DNA of 64,000 nt from Marinoscillum sp. 108 (GTDB taxonomy: Bacteria > Bacteroidota > Bacteroidia > Cytophagales > Cyclobacteriaceae): NCBI RefSeq assembly GCF_902506655.1, contig NZ_LR734808.1:992001-1056000 (forward strand), read 5' to 3'. The notes under the pieces are model-generated. The model had not been told where the DNA came from and did no database searches. It saw only the letters and a list, made by a program, of their open reading frames with translations. Below are positions 391-59,146 of the stretch, in pieces (position 1 is the first letter of the stretch; the number at the start of each line of letters is the position of its first letter). The translations under genes and the position numbers were made by a program.

Positions 391-1335
391 TCAGGCCACT
401 ACGCCCATATTTGAAAACTTGTCGATTCGTTCGGCAATTCGTTTCTCTACGGAAAGTTTCTCCAGGCTCTTAATATGCTTCACCACTTCTTTCTTCAACT
501 CTTTTGAAGCCGCCTTCATATCTGTATGTGCTCCACCAAGGGGCTCCTTAATGATGCCATCAATCAACTTATGCTGAAGCATGTCCTTGGCAGTCAATTT
601 AAGCGCCTCTGCAGCCTGTTCTTTATAATCCCAGCTACGCCATAGAATTGATGAGCACGACTCAGGAGAGATCACCGAATACCAGGTATTTTCCATCATC
701 AATACTTTATCAGCTATGGCAATACCCAAAGCACCACCAGAAGCTCCCTCCCCAATCACTACACTTACTATAGGTACAGTGAGGGTCATCATTTCTTTCA
801 GGTTTCGGGCTATAGCCTCTCCCTGTCCACGCTCTTCTGCCTCTATACCCGGAAAAGCTCCAGGAGTATCTATCAGGGTGATCACAGGGGTATTGAATTT
901 TTCTGCCAGCTTCATCAGACGTAGGGCCTTTCGGTAACCTTCTGGATTGGCCATACCAAAATTACGTTCCTGCCGCTGCTTGGTATTGCGACCCTTCTGC
1001 TGACCGATAATCATCACCGAGAGTCCGTCTACTTTGGCAAATCCGCCTACCATGGCCTTATCGTCCTTCACCGTACGATCACCATGGAGCTCTATAAAAT
1101 CATCGGAAATTTCATAAATATAATCCAGTGTGTAAGGTCGTTCGGGGTGTCTGGATAACTGAACTTTCTGCCACCGGGTCAGGTTTTCAAAAGTATCTTC
1201 TTTCAACTTCACAATCTTTTCTTCCAATTTTGTGATAGCCGCCGACACGTCTACATCACTCTGCTGGGCCAACAGTTTCATGTCTGCCAGTTTGCTTTCT
1301 AATTCTACGATTGGTTTTTCGAATTCTAAGTGCAT
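391..1335 (-). CDS. accA: Acetyl-CoA carboxylase carboxyltransferase subunit alpha
   Basis: AccA pairs with AccD to move the carboxyl group from carboxybiotin to acetyl-CoA, giving malonyl-CoA for fatty acid synthesis in the cytoplasm. The protein shows the usual N-terminal helical region, the GDR segment (ELHGDR) and the crotonase-like core with GGFAKVDG and the [10 protein letters not shown] oxyanion-hole loop. I place the start at the ATG at 1335 ([13 protein letters not shown], 314 aa), where family members normally begin. An in-frame ATG at 1359 would add eight residues that do not look conserved. No accD is in view. The gene is monocistronic or coupled only to the patatin gene downstream. 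Confidence 0.95.
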
Positions 1336-1433
1336 GTATTGAAAAATTTTGAGGTACAAATGTAGCCATAAATACCCTTTTCAGACATTTTAACCGAATT
1401 GAAAAACACATTTAAAATATTTGAAATGAAGTG

Positions 1434-1464
1434 TTGCATTTGAAGAAGTAAGGGTATAGTTTTG
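1434..1464 (+). promoter_or_regulatory. Bacteroidota-type promoter of tRNA-Asp
   Basis: TAGTTTTG at 1457-1464 fits the Bacteroidota -7 consensus TAnnTTTG exactly. A TTG at 1434-1436 lies 20 bases upstream, as expected for the -33 element. Transcription would begin near 1470, about 13 bases before the tRNA. Confidence 0.55.
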
Positions 1465-1482
1465 CAACGCAATTGAGCAAAC

Positions 1483-1556
1483 GGTGTGGTAGTTCAGCTG
1501 GTTAGAATGCCTGCCTGTCACGCAGGAGGTCGCGGGTTCGAGTCCCGTCCATACCG
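1483..1556 (+). tRNA. tRNA-Asp (GTC)
   Basis: A 74-base cloverleaf can be folded by hand. The acceptor arm is GGTGTGG with CCATACC (one G-U pair), followed by discriminator G at 1556. The anticodon stem is CCTGC (1510-1514) with GCAGG (1522-1526), and the loop CTGTCAC holds anticodon GTC at 1517-1519. The T arm has the usual GGTTCGAGTCC. The CCA end is not encoded (CAA follows the discriminator), so the CCA-adding enzyme encoded at 19.8-21.2 kb would be needed to finish it. Confidence 0.97.
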
Positions 1557-1570
1557 CAAAAAATTGCAAA

Positions 1571-1599
1571 ACCCTCTGATTTTCAGAGGGTTTTTTTTG
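1571..1599 (+). terminator. Rho-independent terminator of tRNA-Asp
   Basis: A perfect stem of ACCCTCTGA (1571-1579) and TCAGAGGGT (1583-1591) with a three-base loop, followed by a run of T, 15 bases after the tRNA. Confidence 0.9.
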
Positions 1600-1623
1600 T
1601 TTATAGAGGTTTCGAAAGAATCA

Positions 1624-1653
1624 AGGTATAAATTCTCCTTGAAGCTTATACCT
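1624..1653 (-). other. Inverted repeat just after the LacI-family gene, possible weak terminator
   Basis: AGGTATAA (1624-1631) pairs with TTATACCT (1646-1653), with a short TTC/GAA extension inside the loop. It begins two bases beyond the stop codon of the LacI-family gene on the minus strand. There is no good T run after it, so a role in termination or transcript protection is only a guess. Confidence 0.35.
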
Positions 1654-1655
1654 GT

Positions 1656-2654
1656 TCAACTCTTATCCAAAACAGAATTTCTCTCAACCAACTTCGGCGC
1701 AATATCCAAAGCCTCTGACTCGGTTTCATTCAGTAAATCCAGAAGAGTGGTCACGGCCATGCGGCCCATTTTATTGGTGGAGTGCTCTATGCTCGACAAT
1801 CTGGGAAAGGTGTACTCACACAATGGCCGGTTGTCAAAACCCAAAACCGAAACCTCCTGTGGCACCTTCACTCCTATCACATTGAAGTGGGCAATCACCT
1901 GGGCTCCGATCAGGTCATTGTAACAAGCCACTGCATCGTATGCCCCTTCCTGCCAATATCGGTCAAGAATCTCAGAGGCAGTACCATCCGTATCCAGGAA
2001 ACTTGCCGTACAATTCGGAAGGCCGCTTTCACCCAAAGCCTTATTATATCCACTTAGTCTGGCCACGCCATTCTTTAGCGCCTGAGAGAGTCCTATAAAC
2101 AATAGCTTTCGGTGCCCCGAAGCTATTAGGTACTTACCTCCAAGGTAGCCACCTTCCTCATCATCAAATGAAATATGAGGAAAAACCTCCTGGTCTATGA
2201 TTCGATCAAAAATCACCGCGTGCTTACCCAGAGCAGGCAGGCCCTTAAGGAAATTGATGTTGTGGGTTTCCTTAGACGGAGCGATCAGAATCCCTTCTAC
2301 ATTACAAGCAATCAAAGACTTTACCAATTGATTTTCCTTCTTTTTGGATTCGTTAGACTGGCAAACCAGCAGATTGTACCCAAGTTCCTCTGAGGCTTCC
2401 TGCATACCGGATAGTATGGCAGCAAAGAAATCATCACCAATCTCAGGCACGATGATCCCAATCAGTTTCGTCTTATTGGTTCTGAGTCCTTTGGCCGCAG
2501 TATTTACCTGATAATTCAGTTTACGGGCCATGGCCTTCACCTCCTTGACCAACTGAGCATTGCTTTGGTTCTTACCATTGAGGATGCGGGATACGGTAGA
2601 GGTGGACACTTCCAGCGCACTGGCAATATCTTTGATGGTGGCGACACGTTTCAT
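1656..2654 (-). CDS. LacI-family transcriptional regulator
   Basis: A 332-residue one-component repressor or activator. Residues 5-28 (ATIKDIASALEVSTSTVSR and following) form the LacI-type helix-turn-helix, and NYQVNTAAKGLR is the hinge helix. From about residue 62 (KLIGIIVPEIGDDFF) a periplasmic-binding-protein-like sensor domain follows, which in this family binds a sugar or related ligand. It is transcribed away from the NUDIX-type regulator, with 100 bases between the start codons, so the two probably share an operator region. No sugar catabolic or transport gene is next to it, and the effector cannot be read from context. Confidence 0.93.
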   Translation of the reverse strand: MKRVATIKDIASALEVSTSTVSRILNGKNQSNAQLVKEVKAMARKLNYQVNTAAKGLRTNKTKLIGIIVPEIGDDFFAAILSGMQEASEELGYNLLVCQSNESKKKENQLVKSLIACNVEGILIAPSKETHNINFLKGLPALGKHAVIFDRIIDQEVFPHISFDDEEGGYLGGKYLIASGHRKLLFIGLSQALKNGVARLSGYNKALGESGLPNCTASFLDTDGTASEILDRYWQEGAYDAVACYNDLIGAQVIAHFNVIGVKVPQEVSVLGFDNRPLCEYTFPRLSSIEHSTNKMGRMAVTTLLDLLNETESEALDIAPKLVERNSVLDKS

Positions 2655-2754
2655 TTTGGGTATTCTGGGCTAAACGGAATTTTACATTCTCAAACTATAA
2701 ACGTAAATTTAACGCTTACAGTTGACTAACAACAATCACAAAACACGATTCATC

Positions 2755-3450
2755 ATGACTTATCAGCATCCAACCATGTGGGTTTCCATTGATTGTTTGG
2801 TGTTTGGCTATGATGTCTCCGAAGAGAACCTGAAGTTACTTTTATTTCAAAGAAAAGTAGAGCCCTTTGCTGGACAATGGTCGCTCATTGGTGGATTTGT
2901 TAACGAAAACGAAGACCTCTTGGCCGGTGCGCAGCGTGTACTGAAAACATTCACCGGGCTGGACGGTGTGTTTCTGGAACAACTTTCCACCTTTGGAAAA
3001 GCTCATCGAGATCCGGGCGGCAGAGTGGTATCGGTACTATACTGGAGTCTCATCAAACTGGATTCTATCCAAAAGGAAGTGGTAAACAGTCACGGAGCGG
3101 GTTGGTTTGATCTGGAGCAACTCCCCGATCTGGTCATGGATCACCTCGACATGACCCAGCTGGGCATGGAGCAACTACGCCGCAACGCCACAACCACTCC
3201 TATCGGTTTTGAGCTGTTGCCTGAGAAGTTTACCCTTCCGCAATTGCTGCGCCTCTATGAGGGTATCTATGGCAAAAGCATCGATGATCGAAACTTCCGC
3301 AAAAAGATACTGGCCACAGATGTATTGGTGCGGTTGGATGAAAAGGATAAATCAGGCTCCAAAAAAGGAGCCTATAAGTACATGTTTGATGAGCGTAAGT
3401 ACCATGAGCTGAAGCAACGCGGGTACCACCTGGACTTCTCCATCAAATAA
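2755..3450 (+). CDS. NUDIX-domain transcriptional regulator (NrtR/AraR-like)
   Basis: A NUDIX fold (residues 8-140) is followed by a C-terminal winged-helix domain (about 148-230, including YEGIYGKSIDDRNFRKKIL). This is the layout of NrtR/AraR-type regulators that use a NUDIX fold to sense a nucleotide or sugar ligand. The Nudix box at 47-69 keeps Gly47, Glu53, Arg61 and Gly68, but the catalytic glutamates of REUxEE are replaced (Val62, Thr65, Phe66), so hydrolysis is unlikely. I chose the ATG at 2755 (231 aa); a TTG at 2722 would add 11 residues. The ligand is unknown. In Bacteroides, related proteins control arabinose genes, but none are seen here. Confidence 0.88.
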   Translation: MTYQHPTMWVSIDCLVFGYDVSEENLKLLLFQRKVEPFAGQWSLIGGFVNENEDLLAGAQRVLKTFTGLDGVFLEQLSTFGKAHRDPGGRVVSVLYWSLIKLDSIQKEVVNSHGAGWFDLEQLPDLVMDHLDMTQLGMEQLRRNATTTPIGFELLPEKFTLPQLLRLYEGIYGKSIDDRNFRKKILATDVLVRLDEKDKSGSKKGAYKYMFDERKYHELKQRGYHLDFSIK

Positions 3451-46225: not shown

Positions 46226-46942
46226 TCATAAATCGCCTAATTGTGGTCTGATTACCAGGTCCTCCACCACGGTCCGGTCACTGAGCTGATAAGTGGTGAA
46301 AATCATCTCTGCCACATCTTCCGGTTTCATAAAGCGATCTTCAGGCAAGTCCACCCCTTCCCAACTGGCAGTAAAGGTAGCTCCGGGCATCACTGAGGTC
46401 ACCCGGATTTGATCTACTTTCAATTCCTCTCTCAATACTTTACTCATTCCATACATCGCAAACTTGGAGATGCAGTAAGATCCACCATTGGTGTAAGCGG
46501 TAATGCTGGCAGTGGAACAGATATTGAATATATGCCCTTTTTTCCGCTTCTTCATTTCAGGGATTAGTCCTCTGCTGAGTCTATAAGCACTATACAGGTT
46601 GGTTTCAATCTGCGACTCCAATACGCCCTCTTCTTCTGTGTGTACCTGACCAGGCACAAACTTTCCAGCATTATTGACCAAAACGGCCACAGGCTTACCC
46701 GTCAATCGGATAAACTCAATAAAGTCATTCACCTCTGCTTTCCTGGACACATCAGACACATTCACCAGCACTTTGTTGCCGTACTTGCCCTCTATAGATT
46801 TCTTCAGATCATCCAGGTCGGTCTCATTTCTGGCGCAGGTCGCTATGGTATAGCCGGCTTCAGAAAATTTTTCTATGATGGCCCGGCCGATACCTTTGGT
46901 GCCTCCAGTTACCACAACTAATTTATCTTTCAGATCACCCAT
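46226..46942 (-). CDS. Short-chain dehydrogenase/reductase
   Basis: A 238-residue classical SDR. The cofactor loop TGGTKGIGRA, the NNAG motif, catalytic Ser in CSTASITA and YxxxK (SYCISKFAM) are all present. The acidic or basic choice for NADH versus NADPH is not clear from CARNETD. Members reduce ketones or acyl chains; the substrate here is unknown. I chose the ATG at 46942 (MGDLKDKLVVVTGG); the TTG at 46957 adds five residues. It runs divergently from mlaE. Confidence 0.92.
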   Translation of the reverse strand: MGDLKDKLVVVTGGTKGIGRAIIEKFSEAGYTIATCARNETDLDDLKKSIEGKYGNKVLVNVSDVSRKAEVNDFIEFIRLTGKPVAVLVNNAGKFVPGQVHTEEEGVLESQIETNLYSAYRLSRGLIPEMKKRKKGHIFNICSTASITAYTNGGSYCISKFAMYGMSKVLREELKVDQIRVTSVMPGATFTASWEGVDLPEDRFMKPEDVAEMIFTTYQLSDRTVVEDLVIRPQLGDL

Positions 46943-47086
46943 AATTCTATAAAGCAACCAGAAACCACATTGTTATTTAAGAAAACAAAATCTTCATTTT
47001 GTCCTTTAGTTGGTCAAACGGTTTGTGTTTGCTTCGTTCTTATTAATTTCGGCAAAGCTAACACATCTGACGCAAGAGAATACTTC

Positions 47087-47818
47087 ATGAAATCACTAGG
47101 TAAATTTTTGATTTTTGCTGGTCAGCTTTTCGTAAGACGCGAAAGTTTTTCCACCTACGTTTCCCTGACCATCGATGAGTGCATCAAGGTGGGGTATAAT
47201 TCTCTTTTTATTGTGACCATTGTCTCGGTATTCATGGGTGCGGTTACTACCATCCAGACGGCCTATAACCTGGTAAGCCCCTTCATTCCTGATTACGTGA
47301 TTTCACTGGTAGTACGGGATATGACCGTTTTGGAATTAGCTCCTACCATTATGGCCATTGTATATGCAGGAAAGGTAGGATCTAACATAGCCGGTGAACT
47401 CGGAACCATGCGAATCACAGAACAAATTGATGCTTTGGAAGTGATGGGCATTAACTCTACTTCCTATCTGGTGCTTCCTAAAATCATCGCTTCTATGCTT
47501 ATGTATCCGATGCTGGTGGTGCTTTCGGCATTTTTGTCCATCTATGGTGGCTACCTCACCAGCCTGGCCACAGGCATTATCTCTGGCCATGATTATATCT
47601 ACGGTATTCGATATGACTTCATTGAGTTCAATATCGCATTTGCTCTCATCAAGGCATTTGTTTTTGCTTTTCTGGTAGCTGCCATTTCTGCTTACAAGGG
47701 ATACTTCACTTCAGGCGGAGCACTGGAGGTGGGCCAATCGTCTACTGCTGCCGTCACCAATAGCTGTATTGCCATTTTGCTGGCAGATTATCTACTCGCT
47801 CAACTACTACTCGGATGA
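47087..47818 (+). CDS. MlaE-type ABC transporter permease
   Basis: Inner-membrane permease of an Mla/MCE-type lipid transport system. The 243 residues contain about five helices and the conserved MlaE stretch (VVRDMTVLELAPTIMAIVYAGKVG, then AGELGTMRITEQIDALEVMG), typical of the family that moves phospholipids between the membranes. The ATG at 47087 starts the usual short N-terminus; an in-frame upstream ATG at 46970 would add 39 mostly hydrophobic residues that look less like the family. It overlaps the ATPase gene by four bases. Confidence 0.92.
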   Translation: MKSLGKFLIFAGQLFVRRESFSTYVSLTIDECIKVGYNSLFIVTIVSVFMGAVTTIQTAYNLVSPFIPDYVISLVVRDMTVLELAPTIMAIVYAGKVGSNIAGELGTMRITEQIDALEVMGINSTSYLVLPKIIASMLMYPMLVVLSAFLSIYGGYLTSLATGIISGHDYIYGIRYDFIEFNIAFALIKAFVFAFLVAAISAYKGYFTSGGALEVGQSSTAAVTNSCIAILLADYLLAQLLLG

Positions 47819-48558
47819 TCGAAATCAACAACATAAAGAAGTCTTTTCAGGGCAAAGAAATCCTAAAGGGTATCAACGGCACTTTTGAGCCGGGCAAATG
47901 TAATCTGATCATTGGGTCCAGTGGAACCGGAAAAAGTGTGCTTCTGAAGTGTATTGTGGGGTTATTTAAGCCCGACGAAGGAGACGTACTCTATGATGGC
48001 CGTGACTTTTCTCACGGTGACAAAGAGGCCCAAACGGAAATAAGGAGGGAAATAGGAATGCTTTTTCAGGGCAGCGCACTGTTTGACAGCAAGAATGTAG
48101 AGCAAAACGTGATGTTTCCGCTGAACGTGCTCACAGATATGAGCAAGGAAGAAAAGATAGAGCGCGTGAACTTTTGTCTACAACGTGTGGGGCTGGAGAA
48201 TGTGAACAAAAAAATGCCCTCTGAGATCAGTGGAGGCATGAAAAAACGTGTGGGCATAGCACGTGCTATTGTCAACAAGCCCAATTATCTTTTTTGTGAT
48301 GAACCCAACTCCGGGCTGGATCCACAAACTAGTATGGTCATTGATGAACTTATTGACGAAATCACGCAGGAGTACCAGATGACTACTACCATCGTCACTC
48401 ATGATATGAATTCGGTGATAGAAATAGGTCAGAAAGTAATGTATCTCTACAAAGGTGAAAAATTATGGGATGGCACTAACAAAGACATCACCCACTCAGG
48501 TGTGAAGGAATTGGATGACTTTGTCTTTGCCAACAGAATGATGAAGGAGTTCAGATAA
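47815..48558 (+). CDS. MlaF-type ABC transporter ATP-binding protein
   Basis: ATPase of the same lipid transporter. The 247 residues show Walker A GSSGTGKSV, the signature SGGMKKRVGIARA (the KKR form of MlaF proteins), Walker B YLFCDEPNSGLDP and the H-loop VTHDM. It overlaps mlaE by four bases, so they are cotranslated. In other bacteria MlaD and further partners complete the system; no MlaD (MCE) gene is next to it here. The next gene, a permease fusion, starts 36 bases later. Confidence 0.94.
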   Translation: MIEINNIKKSFQGKEILKGINGTFEPGKCNLIIGSSGTGKSVLLKCIVGLFKPDEGDVLYDGRDFSHGDKEAQTEIRREIGMLFQGSALFDSKNVEQNVMFPLNVLTDMSKEEKIERVNFCLQRVGLENVNKKMPSEISGGMKKRVGIARAIVNKPNYLFCDEPNSGLDPQTSMVIDELIDEITQEYQMTTTIVTHDMNSVIEIGQKVMYLYKGEKLWDGTNKDITHSGVKELDDFVFANRMMKEFR

Positions 48559-48594
48559 AGCAGAAGCATCATCAAAAACCACTAGTTTTAGGGG

Positions 48595-51500
48595 ATGAAG
48601 GAATGGATGAACTGGCCATGGACTGAAATGTTACTTGCCTGTACGGTGGTTCACGGCATCATTGCAGGAGTGCTGCTTCTTTTCAATAAGTTCCCTGCGA
48701 GTCAGTTTTTGGCACGACTACTCCTGAGTACGCTCATCTTTCTCTCCAGCAGCTTTGCCCCTTCCGGTTTGTTCCTGGATCAATTTGCCCTGGCTCTGGT
48801 GGCTATTAGCCTTTTTCTCTACACCAGGTCATTTTTCACCCAAAAAACCCGTAACAACAATAAGCACCTGCTACCGTTGGTGCTTCCAGCGCTTTTCACA
48901 TCTGCTTCGGTGATGGGAGTTGATTTCGAATATGGCTTCATTATTCGGGAAGGAACCCTAATCGCCATTGTGGTTATATACCTCCTTTCTGCCCTCAGGA
49001 CGGCACAGAGAGAAGCAGTCCAGCGTGGGATCTACTGGTTTCAAAACCCGGGAAGCCGCCTGTTATGGTTTAGAAATTTTCTCCTTTTTTCGGTACTCCT
49101 TATTACCTATTGGCTCCTTGCCGGCAATACCCTCAGTGTTTGGGAGACTTCCCTGGGTATTCTGATTTTCAGCTACTTTATCTATTTTCAAGTCTTTAAG
49201 GAATCTAACTTCCTATCCCCAATTCCTCTGGGAAATAAGTATCAGAAATCAACCCTCACTCCCGGGCAGAAAGCGGCCATCCTGGAACGTCTGGATGATT
49301 TGCTGCAAAAGGATAAATTTTACCTCCAAAGCACCATATCCCTCAGTCAGTTGTCGGATCAACTGCACACCACCACCCATCACCTTTCCCAGGTGATCAA
49401 TGAAACCAAAAGCACCTCCTTTCAGGAGCTGATCAGTCAGTACAGAGTGCGTGAAGCCAAGCACTTGCTGAAGGCACCGGAGCAGCAGCAAACCAAAATA
49501 GAGAACATCGCTGCCATGGTTGGGTACAACTCTAAATCGGCCTTTAACACAGCTTTTAAAAAGTATACAGGGCTCACACCGTCAGAATTTAAGGATACCA
49601 AGGGTGTTCGATCCTATCGGGAAGAACGTCTGCCCGGCCAGAAAAAACCATTCTTTCAATACTTAGGCCTTAGTTCGTACCATGTTTTACCAAACCTCAA
49701 AACAAACATGGTTAGCAACTTCCTGAAAATCTTCTATCGCAGAATGGTGAGAAACAAAGTGTTTTCTGCGATCAATCTATTTGGGCTCACTGTTGGGTTT
49801 TCCTGCAGTATCCTGATCTACCTATTCATCACCGACCAACTCTCCTACGATAAGGAGCTCGAGGATAGCGAGAGAATCTATCGCATCGCGTGGATGAGTG
49901 ACAACCCCCAGACGCGCACCCCACACCCCATGGCCCAGGCCATGGCCAGAGATCTGCCAGAGGTAGAGGCTGCCACCAGTCTTTCACCATGGAATGGTGT
50001 AGGGCAAAGCAATGAGACTGTGAAAGTAGAAAATGTGGAGGCTGAAATTCTGTTTCAGGAGCCCAATTTCTTCTTTGTGGATTCTACCTTTCTGGATGTC
50101 TTTCAGCTAGAGGTAGTAGCCGGCGACAAAGACGCACTCAGGAAACCATGGAATCTGGTCATCACCGACAAGATGGCCAAAAAATACTTTGGTAATGAAG
50201 ATCCCATAGGGCGGGAACTAAACGTAAACGACATGCCTGTGGAAATAGCTGCAGTCATCAAAGGGATGCCCGATAAATCCCATTTTCACATCCAAGGCTT
50301 GGTCTCCTATGTGACCATCAAAAACATTAACCCCAGTAACCCCTGGTTCACCTGGGAGGACTTTGGACATTTTAATTACATCAAAACCAAATCTGGTGTG
50401 GACCCCGCCAAGTTGGAAGCCAAAATCCCCGAATGGGTCCTTTCATACCTCAACTGGCCACAGTCTTACAGAGCCTCTCTGCTGGAAGGTGATTATCAGT
50501 TCGCTTTGCAACCAATAGAAGAAATACACCTCTCGTCACATCTGCGATGGGAGCTGGAAAACAATGGCAACATCCTGTATGTATATATTCTTACTGGCAC
50601 CTTGATCTTCTTGCTCCTCATTGTGTGCATCAACTACATTAATCTGACTACCGCTAAGTCATTGGAAAGAGCCCGGGAGGTGGGAATCAAAAAGACACTT
50701 GGTGCCTATTCGGGAAATCTTACCCTGCAATTTTACCTGGAGTCACTCATATTTTGTCTACTGGCCTGGATTCTTGCCCTCCTTCTTGCGGTATTGTGTC
50801 TAGACACTTTCAATTACCTGTCCGGTCAGGCATTCGAGCTTTCAGACATCTTTAACAGCTCTTTTCTGCTAAAATCTATGGGTTTGTGTCTTGCTCTGGC
50901 ACTTCTGGCTGGTTTTTACCCCGCTTTCACCTTGTCTTCATTTATTCCCATGGAAGTGCTGAAAGGCAAGTTCTCTTCCTCATTCCAGGGAAGACAAGTG
51001 CGAAATGGATTGGTGGTCTTTCAGTTTTGTATCTCCAGCATTTTGATTATTTCCAGTCTGATCATCGTGAAGCAGATCAACTTCATGAAAAACACATCGC
51101 TGGGTTTTGATCATGAGGCGGTCATATCCATCCGCGTACACCCAAGTGTAGAAATCGGTGGAATCGATCTACGACAGGTCGAGACCTTCAAAGAACAATT
51201 TGGCAATATCCCCGGAGTGCTCAATACAGGTTCCATTTCCAACCTGCCCGGTGGTCAGTTTAATCAAAATGCTATTTTTCTGGAGGATAGTCCCGAGAAT
51301 CGGGTAGATGCTTCTGAGCTATATGTAGACTATGGTACGGCGCCATCTTTGGGTCTGTCTATGGCCATGGGAAGATACTTTGACCCTACCTATGCAGCAG
51401 ATTCTGCCGGGACCACGTTTATAATTAATGAAAGCGCTATGTCTGCCCTCCGTCTGGAAGATCCCATCGGGAAAAGCCTGACATGGGATAGCGATCCGGT

Positions 51501-52137
51501 AGCCCAAAAAGGAACCATCGTAGGGGTCGTTAAAGACTTCCACTACCAGTCATTGCATGAGGCCATTCAACCATTGATCATCCAGCTCAATCCCGAATAT
51601 GCCAATCACCTCCTGGTGAAAATGGAGGGTAAGAACTTTCAGCAAACACTGAACGACATACAAATCAGCTACCAGAATATTGAGAGTGAGTTACCCTTTA
51701 GCTATCGCTTTTTGGATGAGCAACTGGCCAATCTCTACCTATCTGAAGAACGCACGCTCAATGTCTTTTCCATTTTCGCCGGATTGGCTTTGTTTCTGGC
51801 CTGCCTGGGATTGCTCGGCCTGGCTCTGGCTCTACTCAATCAAAAAGCAAAAGAAGTAAGCATACGGAAAATTATGGGTGCTACACCCAATCACATTTTA
51901 GCTATGGTGTTTTCTCAGTTTGCTCGACTGCTCGGGCTGGCACTCTTGCTGGGGCTACCTACTGGCTATTTTCTGATGCAAAGATGGATTGGAGAATTTT
52001 CTTACCAGGTAACATTGGGAGTAACCCCCTTCTTACTGGCATCCGCTCTCCTGCTTCTCGTGGCCCTTGGCAGTGTGAGCTTGGTAGTATTGAAAATCTC
52101 CCGGGCCAATCCTGCAGATAACCTGAGGTATGAATAG
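48595..52137 (+). CDS. Membrane AraC-type regulator fused to an FtsX/MacB-like ABC permease
   Basis: An uninterrupted 1180-residue frame with two unrelated parts. Residues 1-205 hold about six to seven membrane helices. Residues 245-333 form an AraC-type double helix-turn-helix (ISLSQLSDQLHTTTHHLSQ, then IENIAAMVGYNSKSAFNTAF and KKYTGLTPSEF). After a linker (334-371) Met372 opens a complete two-module FtsX permease (SNFLKIFYRRMVRNKVFSAI, INLFGLTVGFS), with MacB-like periplasmic domains and helices near 400, 680, 740, 800, 1050 and 1110-1170. Each part is normal alone; the fusion is unusual. It could tie transport state to gene control, but no assay exists here. A lost stop codon or annotation artefact between two genes remains possible. 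Confidence 0.85.
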   Translation: MKEWMNWPWTEMLLACTVVHGIIAGVLLLFNKFPASQFLARLLLSTLIFLSSSFAPSGLFLDQFALALVAISLFLYTRSFFTQKTRNNNKHLLPLVLPALFTSASVMGVDFEYGFIIREGTLIAIVVIYLLSALRTAQREAVQRGIYWFQNPGSRLLWFRNFLLFSVLLITYWLLAGNTLSVWETSLGILIFSYFIYFQVFKESNFLSPIPLGNKYQKSTLTPGQKAAILERLDDLLQKDKFYLQSTISLSQLSDQLHTTTHHLSQVINETKSTSFQELISQYRVREAKHLLKAPEQQQTKIENIAAMVGYNSKSAFNTAFKKYTGLTPSEFKDTKGVRSYREERLPGQKKPFFQYLGLSSYHVLPNLKTNMVSNFLKIFYRRMVRNKVFSAINLFGLTVGFSCSILIYLFITDQLSYDKELEDSERIYRIAWMSDNPQTRTPHPMAQAMARDLPEVEAATSLSPWNGVGQSNETVKVENVEAEILFQEPNFFFVDSTFLDVFQLEVVAGDKDALRKPWNLVITDKMAKKYFGNEDPIGRELNVNDMPVEIAAVIKGMPDKSHFHIQGLVSYVTIKNINPSNPWFTWEDFGHFNYIKTKSGVDPAKLEAKIPEWVLSYLNWPQSYRASLLEGDYQFALQPIEEIHLSSHLRWELENNGNILYVYILTGTLIFLLLIVCINYINLTTAKSLERAREVGIKKTLGAYSGNLTLQFYLESLIFCLLAWILALLLAVLCLDTFNYLSGQAFELSDIFNSSFLLKSMGLCLALALLAGFYPAFTLSSFIPMEVLKGKFSSSFQGRQVRNGLVVFQFCISSILIISSLIIVKQINFMKNTSLGFDHEAVISIRVHPSVEIGGIDLRQVETFKEQFGNIPGVLNTGSISNLPGGQFNQNAIFLEDSPENRVDASELYVDYGTAPSLGLSMAMGRYFDPTYAADSAGTTFIINESAMSALRLEDPIGKSLTWDSDPVAQKGTIVGVVKDFHYQSLHEAIQPLIIQLNPEYANHLLVKMEGKNFQQTLNDIQISYQNIESELPFSYRFLDEQLANLYLSEERTLNVFSIFAGLALFLACLGLLGLALALLNQKAKEVSIRKIMGATPNHILAMVFSQFARLLGLALLLGLPTGYFLMQRWIGEFSYQVTLGVTPFLLASALLLLVALGSVSLVVLKISRANPADNLRYE

Positions 52138-52140
52138 GTT

Positions 52141-55100
52141 CTAGAAATAAGCGGTCACCTGCACCGATCCTGTATGTACAGCCGCACTTTCTGCAGATTT
52201 TCTACCAAAGTATTGAAGCGAAAGCTGCAACCCTTTGCCCAGGGACTGCTGCCAGTTGATATTCCACTTCTGGTTAGTCCCTGGCTGGAGGGCTTCAAGT
52301 AGCTCATAGCCCAGATACGAGTTGATTTCCCCTTCGAATTGAATTTCCAGCCAAGTGAAGGAAGCATTCAGGTTACCTTGCCCCGACCTGACCCATGTGG
52401 CTTCCAGCTTATATTCATTGATCTGGGTATTCTCATCTCCCTCCGCCAACCTTTGTTTGTCTCTTCTGCCATAGCCCGTGATGAGTCTGAAGGTATTCAG
52501 TGGCTGCCAGACCACCTCGCTTTCAATGGTTCTTCTCCCAAGGCTAAAATTCCTGCTTTCCAGAAAATCCGAATGATTAACCGTTTCGCCCAGCCCACCA
52601 CGGCCTCTCAAAGTAACCACTGACCCAAATCCAATGCGGTAGGCAGCGAGCCAATCCTGCTTCTCTCTAATCTCAAATCCCCCACTGAGCAATGATTTAC
52701 TACTCTGCCCTGAACGCGTGACATCCAATCCAAAGCCCGGAGCATTCCTGTTGTAGAAAAGGGTATGACGATAGAGGTTCCTTGCTGAAACAACTTTCTC
52801 ATCACTGAGGTCCACAGAGAAGGGATCCAACCTTGACATCAAATCCTGCGAAGTGGTTTTGAAGTCATATTTCAGGTTGGTATTGAAAGACACCCGGGAC
52901 AACACGGGTAAAATCCCGCTTTCATCACGCCAGCCCTCGGGCATTTTCACATCCAGCGTGTGTATGTAAGTAGACTGGTAGGCATTGATGTACTCATCTG
53001 TGGGTGTGAATAATTTAATGAAGGTCTTCTCATCTGGATTAATAGCTTCATAAAATTCATTGATATCCTGTATTCCATCTTCATTTTCGTCCCGCCAGGT
53101 ATGAGTCCCCTCTCCCGTAGCTACATTCAAAAAAACAAATTCCCGCTTCAGCTCACGAATGTTTGCCGTCGCAAAAGTAAGGTTACTGGTAATGTGCCGC
53201 TTCGCAAAATGTCCCAACCAGGATACCCTACCAAGTATATTCTCATCTGTATCCCTGTCACCAATCTGTTCTTTCACCTTCCGGTAGTTGAGCTGAGCAC
53301 CCACCTGATGATTCGTCAGGCTTTTGGAATTCATCGTGAACCGGTATTCCTCGGCTTCTGTATAGGGACTCAGTGTGCCATCTACAGGGAGTTTGTCCTT
53401 TCTGAGGATATAGTCTGCTCTAAAGGTGGTTTTCAATGAATCTCCGCTTTCGACGAAAAAATCATGAGCATCAAAATACATCAATGTACTCAACACTTCT
53501 TCGGTGTCCACATCAGTGGTTGTGTTGTGATCCAATGAAAAATGATAGCCCGGTCGAAGTACCCAATCCACGAGCTGAATCTGTTGGCTGGACCGGAGCC
53601 ATTCGGAGTGATATCCCGTGGGTTGATTGGTCATAAGGAAATTACTGGACTTCACCTCCATTGGGCCAATCCTGTGACCAAGATTTAACTCCTGCTGGAC
53701 ACCCGCAACAACCTGAGCCCTATTCCTCACGGTGAGGCCATATTGACCACCATTGCGGTCGTCTTTTCTTAATCCAACCTGCGCAGAAAAAATCTGATCC
53801 TGCCGGGTCTTCAGGGTATCTGCAAATACATCGTAACCCCAGTCCCGATCGTAATCGGCACTTCTAAATCGATCAATAAAGGTGAAATACCTGCTATCAA
53901 ACTCATAAGTCAGCTCTGCATTGACCGGATAGCCCGCTAAAAATGAAATCTCACGACCCGAAGACACCACCCCTCCTTTCCATGCAAAGCCGCTGTTGTC
54001 AGCATCGTCTATGGGAGAATACAGATTTTGATCCAGTGTGGATATGGCCAGCTCCTGATAGACCTGTTCATAAGCCCCTATTTTGGCCCGCAAACCTGAA
54101 ACAAACATTCGCTTCTGATTGGGTGTGGGGATGACCTGTATAGGCGCATAACTGCCAGCACCGGTCCCTACCCATTCATAAATCCGTCCATTTGAAGTAG
54201 TATTTGCGAGCATGTAGTCTCCGTTGCCTGTACCCACTTCAGAAAAACTAATCCTGAATACAGCGACTTCCGGGTCAGTGCTTTGCTGGAAGATGCTGAT
54301 CTGCGCACCTTCTGCATTGACCGTATCCCGCTTTTGATATAGGACAGCATTTTCAATGTATGCAGTAGAGTCCACACCAGAAATACTCGCGACACCACCA
54401 TTGTCGCCTGCTGCTCTAAGGTTCAGCACATCGGATTCGTTCAGGTCAAAGGCCAGGGTATTGGATGGATTATCCTTTTCCTGATAATAATTAAAGTACA
54501 CCGATAAGTGCTCATTGCTGAGCTGCTGAGTGGCAGATAGGTTGGTTCTGGTATAGAACTGATTGGCAAACTCATAATCCACACGAATCCTGGAAAATCG
54601 GGTGATGATGACCGCACTACTGAAGGTAATTTCTCCAAGATTATAATCGATCACATAATCCCGATCAAATCCCCGCTCCAGCAACCTTCCGTCCAAATAG
54701 ACCCGCTCGGAGTTAGCCATCACGATGATAAATCGCTCTCCATTGGCTCCTCGCAATTTATAGGGGCCCTGTACACCCTCCTGCGGCTGAATCACCGCCG
54801 AGGTAAACTGACCCTTGGCCAGCGCCCCGGACACCTGAGAAGTGGATTTCCAATCTTTGCCCACAGATGTGTGAGCCTTCATGGCCAGCCCTTGCACATT
54901 CTTATAGTATTTTAGAAAATAGCTCTCCTTCACCGGGTTCTGCAGTACAATATCCCCAGCAATCACTTCAAACTGGTCATTGTATAACTTGATAAACACA
55001 TTATCAAAATCTCTGATTTGCTGCGTGTTACCTTCTGGTTGATAAGGGATATTCTGATCCGTAATGACAGCACTCACCTTCAGGTCTTCGCTAAGATTGC

Positions 55101-55629
55101 CTTCCATTTGGAGGTTAAGAGCTGAATTAACAAAGACATTCTGGCGGTTGCCGAAGGTGACTCCACGGGTGATCGCCCCAAAGGTGCTAACCGTCCCAAA
55201 AGAAAAGATCTCTTCCTCTTTGATCGGTGAAAGGGCTGTACCTCTTTCTCTCAGTGCACCGGCAGTGTATCTATTCACATCTCTGTTGAACACCGGCCTG
55301 TGTATGACTTCAGAAACGGAACGGAAACAAATCTCCACTGAGTCCTGAGGGAGCGTCTCCAAAAAGGTGATGGTGCGATGATCGGGTTCGAGGCGAAATG
55401 CCACATCGGGATTGATAGAAACGCTGGAAGCTTCTACTGGCAAGGTGTCCAGCAAAACAGTTTCTCCAACCAAATAAGTGGAGCACTTAAACGACTGAGA
55501 ATGGGCTGTCAGGACGATCAACCCAAACAGCAAAATCAGGCTATACCGAATAGACAGGTAATGAGATGTAGAAGGTAGTACCTTTCCCCTGCTCCGATTC
55601 AAACCATATGTTACCTCCGGCGTTTTCAA
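52141..55629 (-). CDS. Giant outer-membrane beta-barrel protein of unknown function
   Basis: A protein of up to 1162 residues. A signal-like helix (SIRYSLILLFGLIVLTAHSQ) precedes a region of beta-rich repeats; the second half is strand after strand (GYHFSLDHNTTTDV, YRIGFGSVVTLRGRG) up to a final Phe (GSVQVTAYF), which fits a BAM-inserted barrel. No TonB box or plug is evident. The listed ATG at 55629 overlaps the upstream kinase gene by 89 bases, and a CTG at 55557 would put the signal first. Length and overlap suggest it is made with the kinase. I do not recognise the family. Confidence 0.75.
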   Translation of the reverse strand: MKTPEVTYGLNRSRGKVLPSTSHYLSIRYSLILLFGLIVLTAHSQSFKCSTYLVGETVLLDTLPVEASSVSINPDVAFRLEPDHRTITFLETLPQDSVEICFRSVSEVIHRPVFNRDVNRYTAGALRERGTALSPIKEEEIFSFGTVSTFGAITRGVTFGNRQNVFVNSALNLQMEGNLSEDLKVSAVITDQNIPYQPEGNTQQIRDFDNVFIKLYNDQFEVIAGDIVLQNPVKESYFLKYYKNVQGLAMKAHTSVGKDWKSTSQVSGALAKGQFTSAVIQPQEGVQGPYKLRGANGERFIIVMANSERVYLDGRLLERGFDRDYVIDYNLGEITFSSAVIITRFSRIRVDYEFANQFYTRTNLSATQQLSNEHLSVYFNYYQEKDNPSNTLAFDLNESDVLNLRAAGDNGGVASISGVDSTAYIENAVLYQKRDTVNAEGAQISIFQQSTDPEVAVFRISFSEVGTGNGDYMLANTTSNGRIYEWVGTGAGSYAPIQVIPTPNQKRMFVSGLRAKIGAYEQVYQELAISTLDQNLYSPIDDADNSGFAWKGGVVSSGREISFLAGYPVNAELTYEFDSRYFTFIDRFRSADYDRDWGYDVFADTLKTRQDQIFSAQVGLRKDDRNGGQYGLTVRNRAQVVAGVQQELNLGHRIGPMEVKSSNFLMTNQPTGYHSEWLRSSQQIQLVDWVLRPGYHFSLDHNTTTDVDTEEVLSTLMYFDAHDFFVESGDSLKTTFRADYILRKDKLPVDGTLSPYTEAEEYRFTMNSKSLTNHQVGAQLNYRKVKEQIGDRDTDENILGRVSWLGHFAKRHITSNLTFATANIRELKREFVFLNVATGEGTHTWRDENEDGIQDINEFYEAINPDEKTFIKLFTPTDEYINAYQSTYIHTLDVKMPEGWRDESGILPVLSRVSFNTNLKYDFKTTSQDLMSRLDPFSVDLSDEKVVSARNLYRHTLFYNRNAPGFGLDVTRSGQSSKSLLSGGFEIREKQDWLAAYRIGFGSVVTLRGRGGLGETVNHSDFLESRNFSLGRRTIESEVVWQPLNTFRLITGYGRRDKQRLAEGDENTQINEYKLEATWVRSGQGNLNASFTWLEIQFEGEINSYLGYELLEALQPGTNQKWNINWQQSLGKGLQLSLQYFGRKSAESAAVHTGSVQVTAYF

Positions 55630-58600
55630 TTCCTTTTTTAGCTACAGCTAAACCTATCCCACTTCCTTTAGATTTAGTACTAAAATAGGGAGTAAATACT
55701 TTTTCTTTTTGCTCATCAGAAATTCCCATTCCCGAATCCGCCACAGACAGGATCATTTTATCACCGCTCACACGCACGCCTACCTTTATTTTGTGCGTTT
55801 CGGGGGTCTCCTTAGACTGTATGGCATTGAGTAAAATATTGGTAATAACCCGACTGAAAATCTTCGGATCCAGATAAACCATAACAGACTTCACCTCATA
55901 GTCTTTCTTCAATGCCACTTCATTGCTTTGGTAGAGATCAATAGTCTTATTCAATAGACCTATCACTTCCACCGGCTCATTATTAGGTGCGGGCATTTTG
56001 GCAAACTCTGAAAAAGAGTCTGCTATGCTGCTGAGAGAATCCACCTGACTGATCAGCGCTTCGCAAGTCTTATATTCCTTGCTTTCTGTTTCGAATGATC
56101 GCATCATCTGCTGGATCTTCAGTCGCATAGGTGTCAGTGGGTTTTTGATTTCATGTGCCACCTGACGGGCTATTTCATTCCAGGCCGACTCCTTCTGTAT
56201 AGCCGCCAGTGCCTCCTTGCTCTCTTCCAGCTTCACCAGCATGATATTGTATTCTTTGACCAGACTCCCAATCTCATCTTGTGCTTCATAGTGAATAGGC
56301 TGGTTGGTCTCCTCAAGGCTGATTTTTCTGATTCGCTCACCAATCTTCTTCAGTGGCCTCACCAGCTGACCGACAATCACATTCCCTCCAAGCAGTGATA
56401 TGAGGAATATGATTGAAAAAATAACCACGAGGCTATTAAATACCTCTACCTGCTGCTGGCGCAAGTGATTTTTAGAATCGAAATAAGGCATAGATAAGAA
56501 AGCCATAAGGCGGCCGTCTTTGTAGGACCTGAGCGCCGTATAGGAAGTTTTGAAATCTAACTTTCCAATGGTTTCATCTAATATGATGTTCTGCTCTCGC
56601 TTATTTTTGATCTGGTAATATGCTTTTGTATCCAGCAGCCTGGAAAGTAACCCGAGCCTGAAGATCTCCGGCTGACTGGTAATGACCAACCGTCCATTGA
56701 TATCATAGATATTGAGGTCAGACTGAGCAAGGGTAGCAGCTTCCACAATTTCGTTGGCATATTCATCGATATTGATCTGATTAGAGAAAAACATTTCAGA
56801 CTGATCCAGGATATTCTCTGCGATATTATAGCTCCTCTTCTGAAAATTACGATCAATCTCCTCACGGTAGGAAGAATTCAATGTATTAATCAAGGCAACG
56901 CTCACCACCAGCATAGGCAGTAAAAAGGACAAACCCAGGTAGACCTGAATCTTGGTAGACAGATTGAACTGAGCTCCAGATACAAAAATGCGGGCGCCAA
57001 GAAACAGGAATCCTGTGAAGAAAACCAATAGCAAAAACATAAAACTTGAATTGGCCAGGATCGCCTGAGTCTGATAAGTCGGAGACACTATAATCACCGT
57101 GCGGTTGTCTACAGTCTTTAGACCAAAGTAGTGATACCCCCCTTTCTCCAACCCATTATCATACAGCTCTTCATCCTGAAACTCAGCACTCGAAAGCTTA
57201 TTTTCAAAGCTGTAGCGGCCCTGCTTGTAGAGCATCTCACCGTTCTTATACACGGCATAGTCAAACTCTACTTTACTTCCCAGATAATATTTACTCTCCA
57301 GAAGCAATTCAGGAAACACACTGGATGGGATGTACTTCTTCAGCGTAAGGTCGAGTAAAATATAGCCTACCTGACGACCATATGCCGAAATCTCCAGAAA
57401 GCATAAGTATTTGTTTCTGACGTTCTCTTCCCGATCTTCCATGAAATAAATGCCCTCATAATCGGTATAATATTCAGGAATGGCATACTCCTGCTGCCAC
57501 GCTTTATATGACTTGGTCGAAACGTCAGGCTGCAGAGATTCACCCGCAGCATCAAATAAATAAACATCTATGTCGTACTTCTTAAAATAGGATGCCAAAA
57601 ACTGTCTCTTGATCTTCTCCCTGATGTTTTGTCGGGCCAGAATCTTGCTCATAAGACGGGTTCTTACGTATCGATCCTGAGAAATCTCCTGGATGATTTC
57701 ACTGAGATAATACTCCCCTATAATGTCATTTCTAATCAGAAGTCTGTTAGCAAACTTCTCTTTAGCTACTAAATCATCCTTCTCGTGATGCTTGTAAACT
57801 GCCAGAGAGCTCACAATGGATGTGGTTGCGAAAACCATGACCAGAAAGATGAAAGTCTGGTAACGAAGCCTGTTGATCGCTTTACTAAACTTCCAGAAGT
57901 CAACCAAACAGGAAAGTAGCACAAATGCACTCGCATACCCCAGACCAGGACCAGGCAATACAATAGTTAGGGGGAGCGCACTCACCATAAGAATGTATTT
58001 CAGCACTTTATTTACAGGAAGGACAAACAGAGTCAATTGGCAAATGCTGAAAATCAGCATCACTGATAGCCCTATCAATATCAAAAATGCATATGCACTG
58101 ATCCTTAACTCATTAAAAACGATAGAGCTACTGATGTCCAACTCAACCTGCGAATGCTCTAAAAGCAGCCAGGTAGATCCGTAGACCAGCCAAGCCACCA
58201 TCACAATCATTAGTGAAAGGAGTACCCCTATCCCGATAGCCCCTGGACGAGACAATTTGCTCACCCAATCTGACAGGTCGCTCACCACGGCGCTGTACAC
58301 AATGGCAGATATGATGAAAAGCACAAATCCATTCACAAGTAAGTCCCCCAAGGTGGGGTTGATCAGATCTGCTGCAAAAAATACCGGATTGAAGAGGTCC
58401 CAATCACCAACGGCTGTCTGTGTATACCAAAAAAGCAGCAGCCTCCATCCCACAATAATCATGATCAAAAGTCCTGATCTTTGGAGTTTGGAATAGGAAG
58501 ATCTCCCAAGAGCGCTTATGACAAACCAAACACACAGCAACCCCGCCAGAATCAAAGCCACTAATCCCATCCACTCACCATTTGGATGGCCCTGTTCTGA

Positions 58601-59146
58601 AATAACTGCCGTAAATAAGGGAATACCGTTGAATGAAAAAGTATGTGGGCCACTGTCCGTAATTCTCAGTTCATAAGCCTCGAAAATTTCGCTATTGAGC
58701 CGATCAGATAGGTACTGGTTTTTGACCGGAGGACTTTCATAAAGCGTAACCATTGAGAAAATTTCGATCAGATCCCGATCGGTTACCACCTGCCTCCCTT
58801 TGACAATCCGTACTCCAAAGTCATCCTTTATGGTATAAAGGGTGTCTGACTTTTTTAAAGCGCCATATTCAGGATAAAACTGATTGTCAGTCCAGTAGAC
58901 CAATCCCCCATTAACAAAGACCCGCTTGCTAAAACGAGCATTGTCTTTAATGGAAAAAGGGTTGGTATAGACAGCCAATTCATTCTCAAATTGATCTATG
59001 TCTTGCTGTTGGGCCCTAAGTACGGTTTGTAAATTAGTGGATATTACCTGAGCAATCGTCTCGGGTTGTCGATTGCTGGTTATCCCATAGAAAAGGACAG
59101 CCAGAAGAATTAGTAGAAAGAGAAAAAAGCTGAATTTTAGCCGCAT
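55541..59146 (-). CDS. Large sensor histidine kinase (NtrY-like)
   Basis: A 1201-residue membrane kinase. The N-terminal 400 residues contain many membrane helices, followed by a large extracytoplasmic domain and a further helix near 740. HAMP (about 905-965), HisKA with the phospho-acceptor His998 in VAHEIKNPL, and an HATPase_c domain (NILLNAIQ, DSGMGISDEQ, GSGIGLAVAK) form the output. The KNPLTPMRLKIQ stretch resembles NtrY kinases. No response regulator lies next to it. It begins 27 bases after the DUF983 gene, so it may be the tail of the oxidase-biogenesis operon; its 3' end overlaps the outer-membrane protein gene. Confidence 0.9.
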   Translation of the reverse strand: MRLKFSFFLFLLILLAVLFYGITSNRQPETIAQVISTNLQTVLRAQQQDIDQFENELAVYTNPFSIKDNARFSKRVFVNGGLVYWTDNQFYPEYGALKKSDTLYTIKDDFGVRIVKGRQVVTDRDLIEIFSMVTLYESPPVKNQYLSDRLNSEIFEAYELRITDSGPHTFSFNGIPLFTAVISEQGHPNGEWMGLVALILAGLLCVWFVISALGRSSYSKLQRSGLLIMIIVGWRLLLFWYTQTAVGDWDLFNPVFFAADLINPTLGDLLVNGFVLFIISAIVYSAVVSDLSDWVSKLSRPGAIGIGVLLSLMIVMVAWLVYGSTWLLLEHSQVELDISSSIVFNELRISAYAFLILIGLSVMLIFSICQLTLFVLPVNKVLKYILMVSALPLTIVLPGPGLGYASAFVLLSCLVDFWKFSKAINRLRYQTFIFLVMVFATTSIVSSLAVYKHHEKDDLVAKEKFANRLLIRNDIIGEYYLSEIIQEISQDRYVRTRLMSKILARQNIREKIKRQFLASYFKKYDIDVYLFDAAGESLQPDVSTKSYKAWQQEYAIPEYYTDYEGIYFMEDREENVRNKYLCFLEISAYGRQVGYILLDLTLKKYIPSSVFPELLLESKYYLGSKVEFDYAVYKNGEMLYKQGRYSFENKLSSAEFQDEELYDNGLEKGGYHYFGLKTVDNRTVIIVSPTYQTQAILANSSFMFLLLVFFTGFLFLGARIFVSGAQFNLSTKIQVYLGLSFLLPMLVVSVALINTLNSSYREEIDRNFQKRSYNIAENILDQSEMFFSNQINIDEYANEIVEAATLAQSDLNIYDINGRLVITSQPEIFRLGLLSRLLDTKAYYQIKNKREQNIILDETIGKLDFKTSYTALRSYKDGRLMAFLSMPYFDSKNHLRQQQVEVFNSLVVIFSIIFLISLLGGNVIVGQLVRPLKKIGERIRKISLEETNQPIHYEAQDEIGSLVKEYNIMLVKLEESKEALAAIQKESAWNEIARQVAHEIKNPLTPMRLKIQQMMRSFETESKEYKTCEALISQVDSLSSIADSFSEFAKMPAPNNEPVEVIGLLNKTIDLYQSNEVALKKDYEVKSVMVYLDPKIFSRVITNILLNAIQSKETPETHKIKVGVRVSGDKMILSVADSGMGISDEQKEKVFTPYFSTKSKGSGIGLAVAKKGIENAGGNIWFESEQGKGTTFYISLPVYSV

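Follow-up and report, generated by a model that had tools for sequence, protein, structure and literature searches.

A membrane AraC-type regulator fused to a MacB/FtsX-type permease in Marinoscillum sp. 108, with a putative operator-promoter inside its coding linker

Does a single open frame that begins as a membrane-bound AraC-type regulator and ends as a complete ABC permease encode only one protein, or does it also carry a promoter for its own second half? The question is raised by the gene at positions 48595-52137 of a 64,000-nucleotide stretch of Marinoscillum sp. 108 (NCBI RefSeq assembly GCF_902506655.1, contig NZ_LR734808.1, positions 992,001 to 1,056,000, forward strand; hereafter the window). 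A first-pass annotation of the window had described here one stop-free frame of 1180 residues with six to seven helices, an AraC helix-turn-helix domain (HTH; residues 245-333), a 38-residue linker and a two-module permease starting at Met372. From comparison of related sequences, the locus is probably best read as a self-contained gene for both transporter and regulator whose coding linker holds an AraC-type operator-promoter; it would yield a long regulator-permease and a short permease. The parts of the gene are listed below.

48595..52137, plus strand: fused regulator-permease gene, 1180 amino acids (single open frame; Pfam domains; orthologs full-length and across the joint)
48619..49203, plus strand: seven-helix membrane domain, residues 9-203 (AlphaFold2 helices)
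49351..49593, plus strand: AraC-type HTH, Pfam HTH_18, residues 253-333 (Pfam; 11 invariant residues)
49600..49707, plus strand: linker, residues 336-371, with the proposed embedded operator-promoter (codon constraint; AlphaFold2 pLDDT)
49708..52137, plus strand: complete two-module MacB/FtsX-type permease, residues 372-1180 (Pfam; AlphaFold2; fold matches)

The frame starts with an ATG at 48595, its stop codon ends at 52137, and it contains zero internal stops. The HTH scored above the curated Pfam cut-offs of both HTH_18 (residues 253-333; 65.5 bits, cut-off 33.6) and HTH_AraC (residues 292-332; 39.7 bits, cut-off 26.6), and the N-terminal half has no other Pfam domain. Thirteen residues of this half are invariant across all 28 fused sequences, 12 of them inside or beside the HTH; the invariant positions include H262, S265, N269, F276, R284, G310, S313, K314, F317, F321 and P329, and by this measure the HTH of the fused protein is intact. 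In the C-terminal half, MacB_PCD was matched at residues 391-612 (92.4 bits) and the FtsX domain twice, with the best stretch at 1060-1173. An AlphaFold2 model (input alignment of 22 rows, including 8 fused ones; mean pLDDT 77.2, pTM 0.58) has seven membrane helices (residues 9-29, 34-52, 58-82, 89-106, 114-143, 154-179 and 182-203), HTH helices spanning 223-336 and two permease modules from about residue 370. The HTH is placed between the two membrane parts, and the linker is largely disordered (residues 346-371, pLDDT below 50). The best Foldseek match of the model was YbbAP of E. coli (E 1.4e-16), followed by MacB, LolCDE and BceAB(S). Residues 372-1180 are a MacB/FtsX-type ABC permease by their MacB_PCD and FtsX domains and matching fold; with 297.5 bits against TIGR03434 (duplicated permeases of the ADOP family), under the cut-off of 622.3, the fused protein is not filed as a member of that family. 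The open frame and the domain order of the first-pass annotation are thus borne out, and its linker and permease start agree with ours within a few residues.

A first scan of genome contigs gave 41 loci, nine of which (L051-L059, with L059 on a short cut contig) matched both the N-terminal half and the permease with 50-56% identity; in the remaining loci the permease half alone was matched, a few also reaching the end of the linker. The distribution of the fusion was then searched with a profile that runs from the HTH through the linker to the start of the permease, scoring up to six candidates per genome. At least 25 fused loci, the window's own included, were found in 25 of 390 genomes of the family, two of them cut by contig ends. 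In a sample of 395 genomes of the phylum, the matches listed included, besides the genome of Marinoscillum sp. 108 itself, three fused proteins from another family, f22, in two of its genomes (G507 twice, and G617). The annotation had taken the fusion to be real and had named relatives that are always split as one observation that would speak against it; the fused relatives settle both points in its favour. Permease identity to the window is 36-59% in the main clade (70% in L164, over its 97 residues) and 27-30% in f22. All 28 fused sequences have a stop-free linker frame, and this is not due to chance because stops occur in 25 of them when read in the +1 frame and in all 28 in the +2 frame; the linkers are 102, 108 or 111 nt long, lengths that lie multiples of three apart. 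These comparisons indicate that the fusion is kept open in frame over deep divergence. One further fusion, suspected at G046:C30, was rejected, as none lay in the stretch fetched. Open-licence literature gave no description of a regulator-permease fusion or of the seven-helix AraC type, one of these negatives being weak because its query mostly caught papers on arachidonic acid, and likewise nothing on the spacing of AraC sites; the annotation, too, knew of no described system that fuses the two halves.

In a tree of the permease half (121 rows, quick method, LG+G4), the 24 fused rows of the main clade form one clade (98). Its sister group consists of the split pairs L177 and L178, in which the permease is preceded on the same strand by an AraC gene (intervals of 68 and 392 bases), and of the prefix permeases L065, L066 and L082; in L179, which shares its contig with L066, a related AraC gene precedes the prefix permease by 2.6 kb. 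The f22 fusions branch elsewhere, and the label fused or unfused needs three changes on this tree. In the tree of the N-terminal half (79 rows), the 25 main-clade rows again form one clade (99); the half of the tree that holds them also contains the split sisters' regulators and several regulators neighbouring acyltransferase genes (support 88, drawn open; many long branches). Acyltransferase-3 genes (PF01757) lie near stand-alone membrane AraC regulators in 11 distinct loci (L026/L094, L027/L131, L028, L029, L031, L034, L038, L128, L135, L137, L146), several of them directly downstream. Two adjacent fusions in L180 (264-3923 and 4314-7979) have regulator halves that are close relatives and permease halves on different branches, as though a second permease had received the regulator module.

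The linker is the most synonymous-constrained stretch of the gene, though the protein predicted there is disordered. Codon identity given identical residues was scanned in segments of 15 codons (n = 1162) over 25 main-clade rows, with the pair L053-L054 left out. The 25 best of the 1162 segments all lie in residues 333-374, the best with an observed/expected ratio of 1.83 (mean 0.99, standard deviation 0.13); the best segment outside residues 325-385 reached 1.26 and 1.33 in subclade scans of 12 and 7 rows. In ten main-clade pairs that share no sequence, the ratio of the linker was at least 1.49 in every pair and topped all other segments in six, while 23 and 29 other segments were as high as the linker in L092-L163 and L166-L172, respectively. 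The synonymous divergence (dS) of the linker was 0 to 0.59 in nine pairs, with most other regions saturated or higher. On these measures, the linker DNA is under nucleotide-level selection.

The layout of the constrained DNA corresponds to an AraC-type site, with two half-sites and a -7-like box ahead of the ATG of Met372, and would function as follows.

49603..49646, plus strand: proposed operator, half-sites 49615-49624 and 49636-49645, 21 bp apart (matrix; layout alignment)
49670..49677, plus strand: proposed -7 box TTAGTTCG (TTCG 38 nt past the start of half-site 2)
49708..49710, plus strand: ATG codon for Met372, a proposed internal start from which the permease alone would be made (Met in all 28 fused sequences)

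The half-site spacing of AraC itself is 21 bp. All 33 spacings from 8 to 40 were scanned, with L053 left out, against 100 shuffles. In scans whose significance is overstated by the relatedness of rows within sets and by shuffles that keep base composition only, 21 bp ranked first in fused clade 1 (14 rows) and clade 2 (10 rows), above all 100 shuffles in both; in the AraC-acyltransferase intervals (11 rows), with a score equal to the shuffle maximum; and in the split sisters plus L179 (three rows), with a score equal to the shuffle 95th percentile. It was not first in the other AraC loci (six), the f22 fusions (three) and the other split pairs (three). The spacing had been noticed by eye in some sequences before the scan, and the real test is a held-out set of 20 regulator loci. 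With an acyltransferase present (nine loci), 21 bp ranked 1 of 33 (7.78; shuffle 95th percentile 7.00, a significance overstated in the same way); without one (11 loci), it ranked 21 of 33. An automatic rule for a strong 21-bp repeat (8 of 11 matches) was passed by one of the 11 held-out loci without an acyltransferase; TT[TC]G lies 34-44 nt past the start of half-site 2 in the six acyltransferase loci that pass the rule and is absent in that one.

A matrix of the operator was built from 13 rows, including the window row, L177 and L178 (the L057 row came out empty), and outside these rows it hit L057 (59.4), L164 (27.0), L034 (21.8), L171 (21.6) and copies. The second half-site of L177 lies in the interval between regulator and permease, and in L034 and L190 the site begins right after the regulator stop. 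In L191 and L193 the stop codon TAA of the regulator lies inside the first half-site, so that the proposed operator overlaps coding sequence in unfused genes too. A search for a regulon gave no matrix hit over 17 upstream of a fused gene in the loci examined, and in the genome of Marinoscillum sp. 108 the linker only. Control by the linker site is probably local, since the linker itself is the sole copy of its 23-nt core in that genome at up to three mismatches.

PMC7366714 gives the -7 consensus as TAnnTTTG and states that attempts to find a -33 motif in Flavobacterium johnsoniae failed. The best box was scored over the 60 nt that precede the ATG (27 rows, L053 left out), and 0 of 1000 composition shuffles reached the mean of these scores, a significance overstated for the same reasons as that of the spacing. 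In a set of 23 fused linkers (21 of the 25 of the main clade, plus L092 and L163; L053 and L173 stand outside it), 22 have TT[TC]G at a distance of 38-39 nt from the start of half-site 2. This distance is 38 nt in the split sister L177 and, with anchors set by eye, 39-40 nt in L028, L031, L034, L128, L190, L191 and L193; four of the 11 first-set and five of the nine held-out acyltransferase loci were anchored in this way. From box to ATG the distance is 37 or 34 in clade 1, 27 in clade 2 and L164, 20 in L177, 20 to 30 in six acyltransferase loci and 58 in L028 (box at 2292, start of the open reading frame (ORF) at 2350). A fixed operator-to-box distance with a loose box-to-ATG distance is what a promoter would predict. 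The split sister has a similar layout in its regulator-permease interval, as do loci in which a stand-alone regulator neighbours an acyltransferase gene, there behind the regulator. A similar motif stands in L179 (6244-6430), after the regulator gene and before an ORF of 530 residues with a lipoprotein-like start.

Met372 is the sole invariant residue among the 23 methionines of the window protein in the 28 fused sequences, and its ATG stands where stand-alone permeases begin. An argument for an internal start from Met372 alone was dropped, as the control with prefix permeases keeps a Met at this place as well (see below). The annotation had set initiation only at 49708 against the fusion; as an either/or this does not stand, because the linker resembles an operator-promoter that ends at the ATG at 49708, and we favour two products, the long fusion and the short permease. 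Prefix permeases, with about 70-100 residues before the permease, occur at L065-L067, L165, L167, L168, L171 and L177-L179, often after a protein of about 115 residues that is a putative PadR-like regulator.

In the mechanism that we propose, the protein is a seven-helix membrane AraC-type regulator that continues in frame into a complete MacB/FtsX-type permease; its HTH would bind the linker site and activate an internal promoter, adding a short stand-alone permease to the long fusion. More tentatively, and by analogy with BceAB-BceS-BceR, the permease-anchored regulator may report substrate or the transport cycle, which would give need-based feedback within one polypeptide. It is possible that the HTH senses the state of the permease directly. 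The ATPase would be supplied in trans. We see an even chance that the gene is a one-gene feedback device in the full sense: one membrane protein that is sensor, transcription factor and transporter at once, with an operator and promoter in its own linker codons that switch on a separate copy of the transporter half, linker and promoter being co-selected in the same bases across many genera.

Several observations weigh against this proposal. In the window itself, the box TTAGTTCG is a weak match to TAnnTTTG and the second half-site is weak (4 of 10 matches). The L051 linker lacks TT[TC]G, L170 has no half-site match, the box spacing is 16 in L178 and 43 in L179, and L188 and L199 do not fit. 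The anchors for the box spacing were picked by eye, and equal linker length inside one clade means that equal spacing is partly inherited. By the automatic rule, a strong 21-bp repeat is present in just three of the nine held-out and three of the 11 first-set acyltransferase loci. The matrix hits of L177 and L178 are no independent test because both helped build the matrix, and the first half-site of L177 overlaps the regulator stop codon and is thus not wholly non-coding. As to codon constraint, the membrane part of L092-L163 has a dS of 0.455, under the 0.530 of the linker, and the f22 fusions lack clear linker constraint (pair ratios 1.90, 1.26 and 1.09). In 29 of 33 rows, permeases with an unrelated prefix retain a Met in the position that corresponds to Met372 (some rows being the same genome twice). 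Binding of the linker site by the HTH of the fused protein, finally, is argued by association.

The most serious competitor, which we consider unlikely, is a plain fusion that makes one long protein. The HTH would then regulate the whole operon or genes elsewhere, and the linker would be conserved for another reason, for example translation speed or the binding of a different regulator. Such a gene would have the uniformly open linker frame that is observed and could be read from the operon of mlaF, 36 bases ahead of it, and a Met at the place of the internal ATG is frequent in prefix-type permeases as well. It leaves unexplained, however, why a similar layout of half-sites and box occurs in intervals that have no linker (L031, L034, L190), and why the half-site-to-box distance is constant at 38-40 nt whereas box to ATG varies from 20 to 58.

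Alternatively, only the short permease and the regulator might matter; the long frame would then be two genes read through as a unit, with no function as a single protein. Among the closest unfused relatives, some are indeed adjacent genes, the internal ATG is invariant and the linker is disordered in the model. We nevertheless regard this as improbable, given that none of the 28 linkers contains a stop whereas the other two frames almost always do, and that linker lengths change only by whole codons. Slightly less probable still is a linker that acts as RNA (attenuator, pseudoknot or translation-coupling structure) and not as a DNA operator. Linkers do contain inverted repeats of the CGTTCG-N12-CGAACG type, yet RNAalifold on 12 linkers gave -2.92 kcal/mol with a covariation term of 0.01, no Rfam match was found up to E 1 in 46900-52300, and it is a direct spacing, 21 bp, that ranks first in both fused clades. 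An artefact of assembly or gene calling, for which nothing was found, is practically discounted by the recurrence of the fusion in at least 25 loci of the family and in three proteins of the phylum sample, with permeases as divergent as given above.

The fusion probably arose from a pair of genes, regulator first and permease second, in which the permease promoter was located at the 3' end of the regulator; the stop was lost and the frames matched.

Two genes of another transporter precede the fusion in the window.

46970..47818, plus strand: MlaE-type permease gene, upstream neighbour (PF02405, 221.5 bits)
47815..48558, plus strand: upstream gene for an MlaF-type ABC ATPase, not regarded as a partner (PF00005)

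The annotation had pointed to the MlaF-type protein as the sole adjacent ATPase. Its presence was confirmed; as a partner it was rejected on synteny, since among the nine loci L051-L059 (L059 being a short contig) MlaE and MlaF stand beside the fusion only in L053, L054 and L056. By this comparison MlaEF is a local neighbour only and not a conserved one. Apart from MlaF, no adjacent cognate ATPase, as is often seen for MacB/FtsX-type permeases, was found beside the fusion. With MlaF as query, the fused loci of the wider set likewise gave no adjacent ATPase, the matches lying 4.6 kb (L171) and 5.3 kb (L165) away. None of the 22 unfused paralogous permeases in the genome of Marinoscillum sp. 108 has a PF00005 match within 5 kb (46 ABC ATPase matches in the genome; nearest at 5053 bases). 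Two genes from the fusion, the minus strand of the window encodes a histidine kinase of 1201 residues (55541-59146; HAMP, HisKA, HATPase_c); it had no match in L051-L059 and is hence not a conserved neighbour. In L164, genes for a response regulator and a histidine kinase (899-3117) lie upstream of the fused gene, with one ORF between.

A substrate is hinted at by the acyltransferases. An acyltransferase-3 gene lies 3' of the fused gene in L159 and of the split permease in L177 (gene order AraC, permease, acyltransferase), which places permease and acyltransferase in one cluster in both loci. Such neighbours of related regulators hint at an envelope lipid or glycan as substrate. The genome of Marinoscillum sp. 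108 has one relative of the acyltransferase (35%; G000:C1:2751402-2752430), far from the fusion.

If the proposal is correct, the gene is a case of compact transporter-based sensing without a kinase or response regulator, and of a promoter that is kept inside a protein linker under double selection and is missed by gene annotation. The linker would offer a candidate target site for the seven-helix AraC type of regulator, and for a group of permeases that lack a linked ATPase in this genome the acyltransferase neighbours are a lead to the substrate.

Among known systems, the fusion resembles AraC of the arabinose operon (AraC/XylS family) in its HTH_18 DNA-binding domain. AraC binds the adjacent sites I1 and I2 near the promoter, as described in PMC4486848. 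Unlike AraC, the fusion is anchored by seven predicted helices and joined to a transporter, and its proposed site lies inside its own coding sequence. With the Bce modules (BceAB-BceS-BceR) it shares a permease of related fold; for BceAB-BceS, PMC10314905 presents the proposal that transport activates the kinase and raises expression of the transporter. In contrast to these modules, the DNA-binding domain of the fusion is part of the same chain, there is no kinase or response regulator and no adjacent cognate ATPase; at the window locus, no genes for a BceS-type kinase and its response regulator were found alongside the transporter, the immediate neighbours being MlaF and one ORF without a Pfam match. 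Like the ADOP (TIGR03434) and prefix permeases, the fusion has a two-module MacB/FtsX permease, and its paralogs in the same genome also lack a nearby ATPase; it differs from them in its score below the TIGR03434 cut-off and in an extension that is a membrane AraC protein and not a short prefix. The AraC-acyltransferase-3 loci have a related regulator half, and several of them the 21-bp repeat and a TTTG box; there, unlike in the fusion, regulator and partner have a gene each, and the partner is an acyltransferase.

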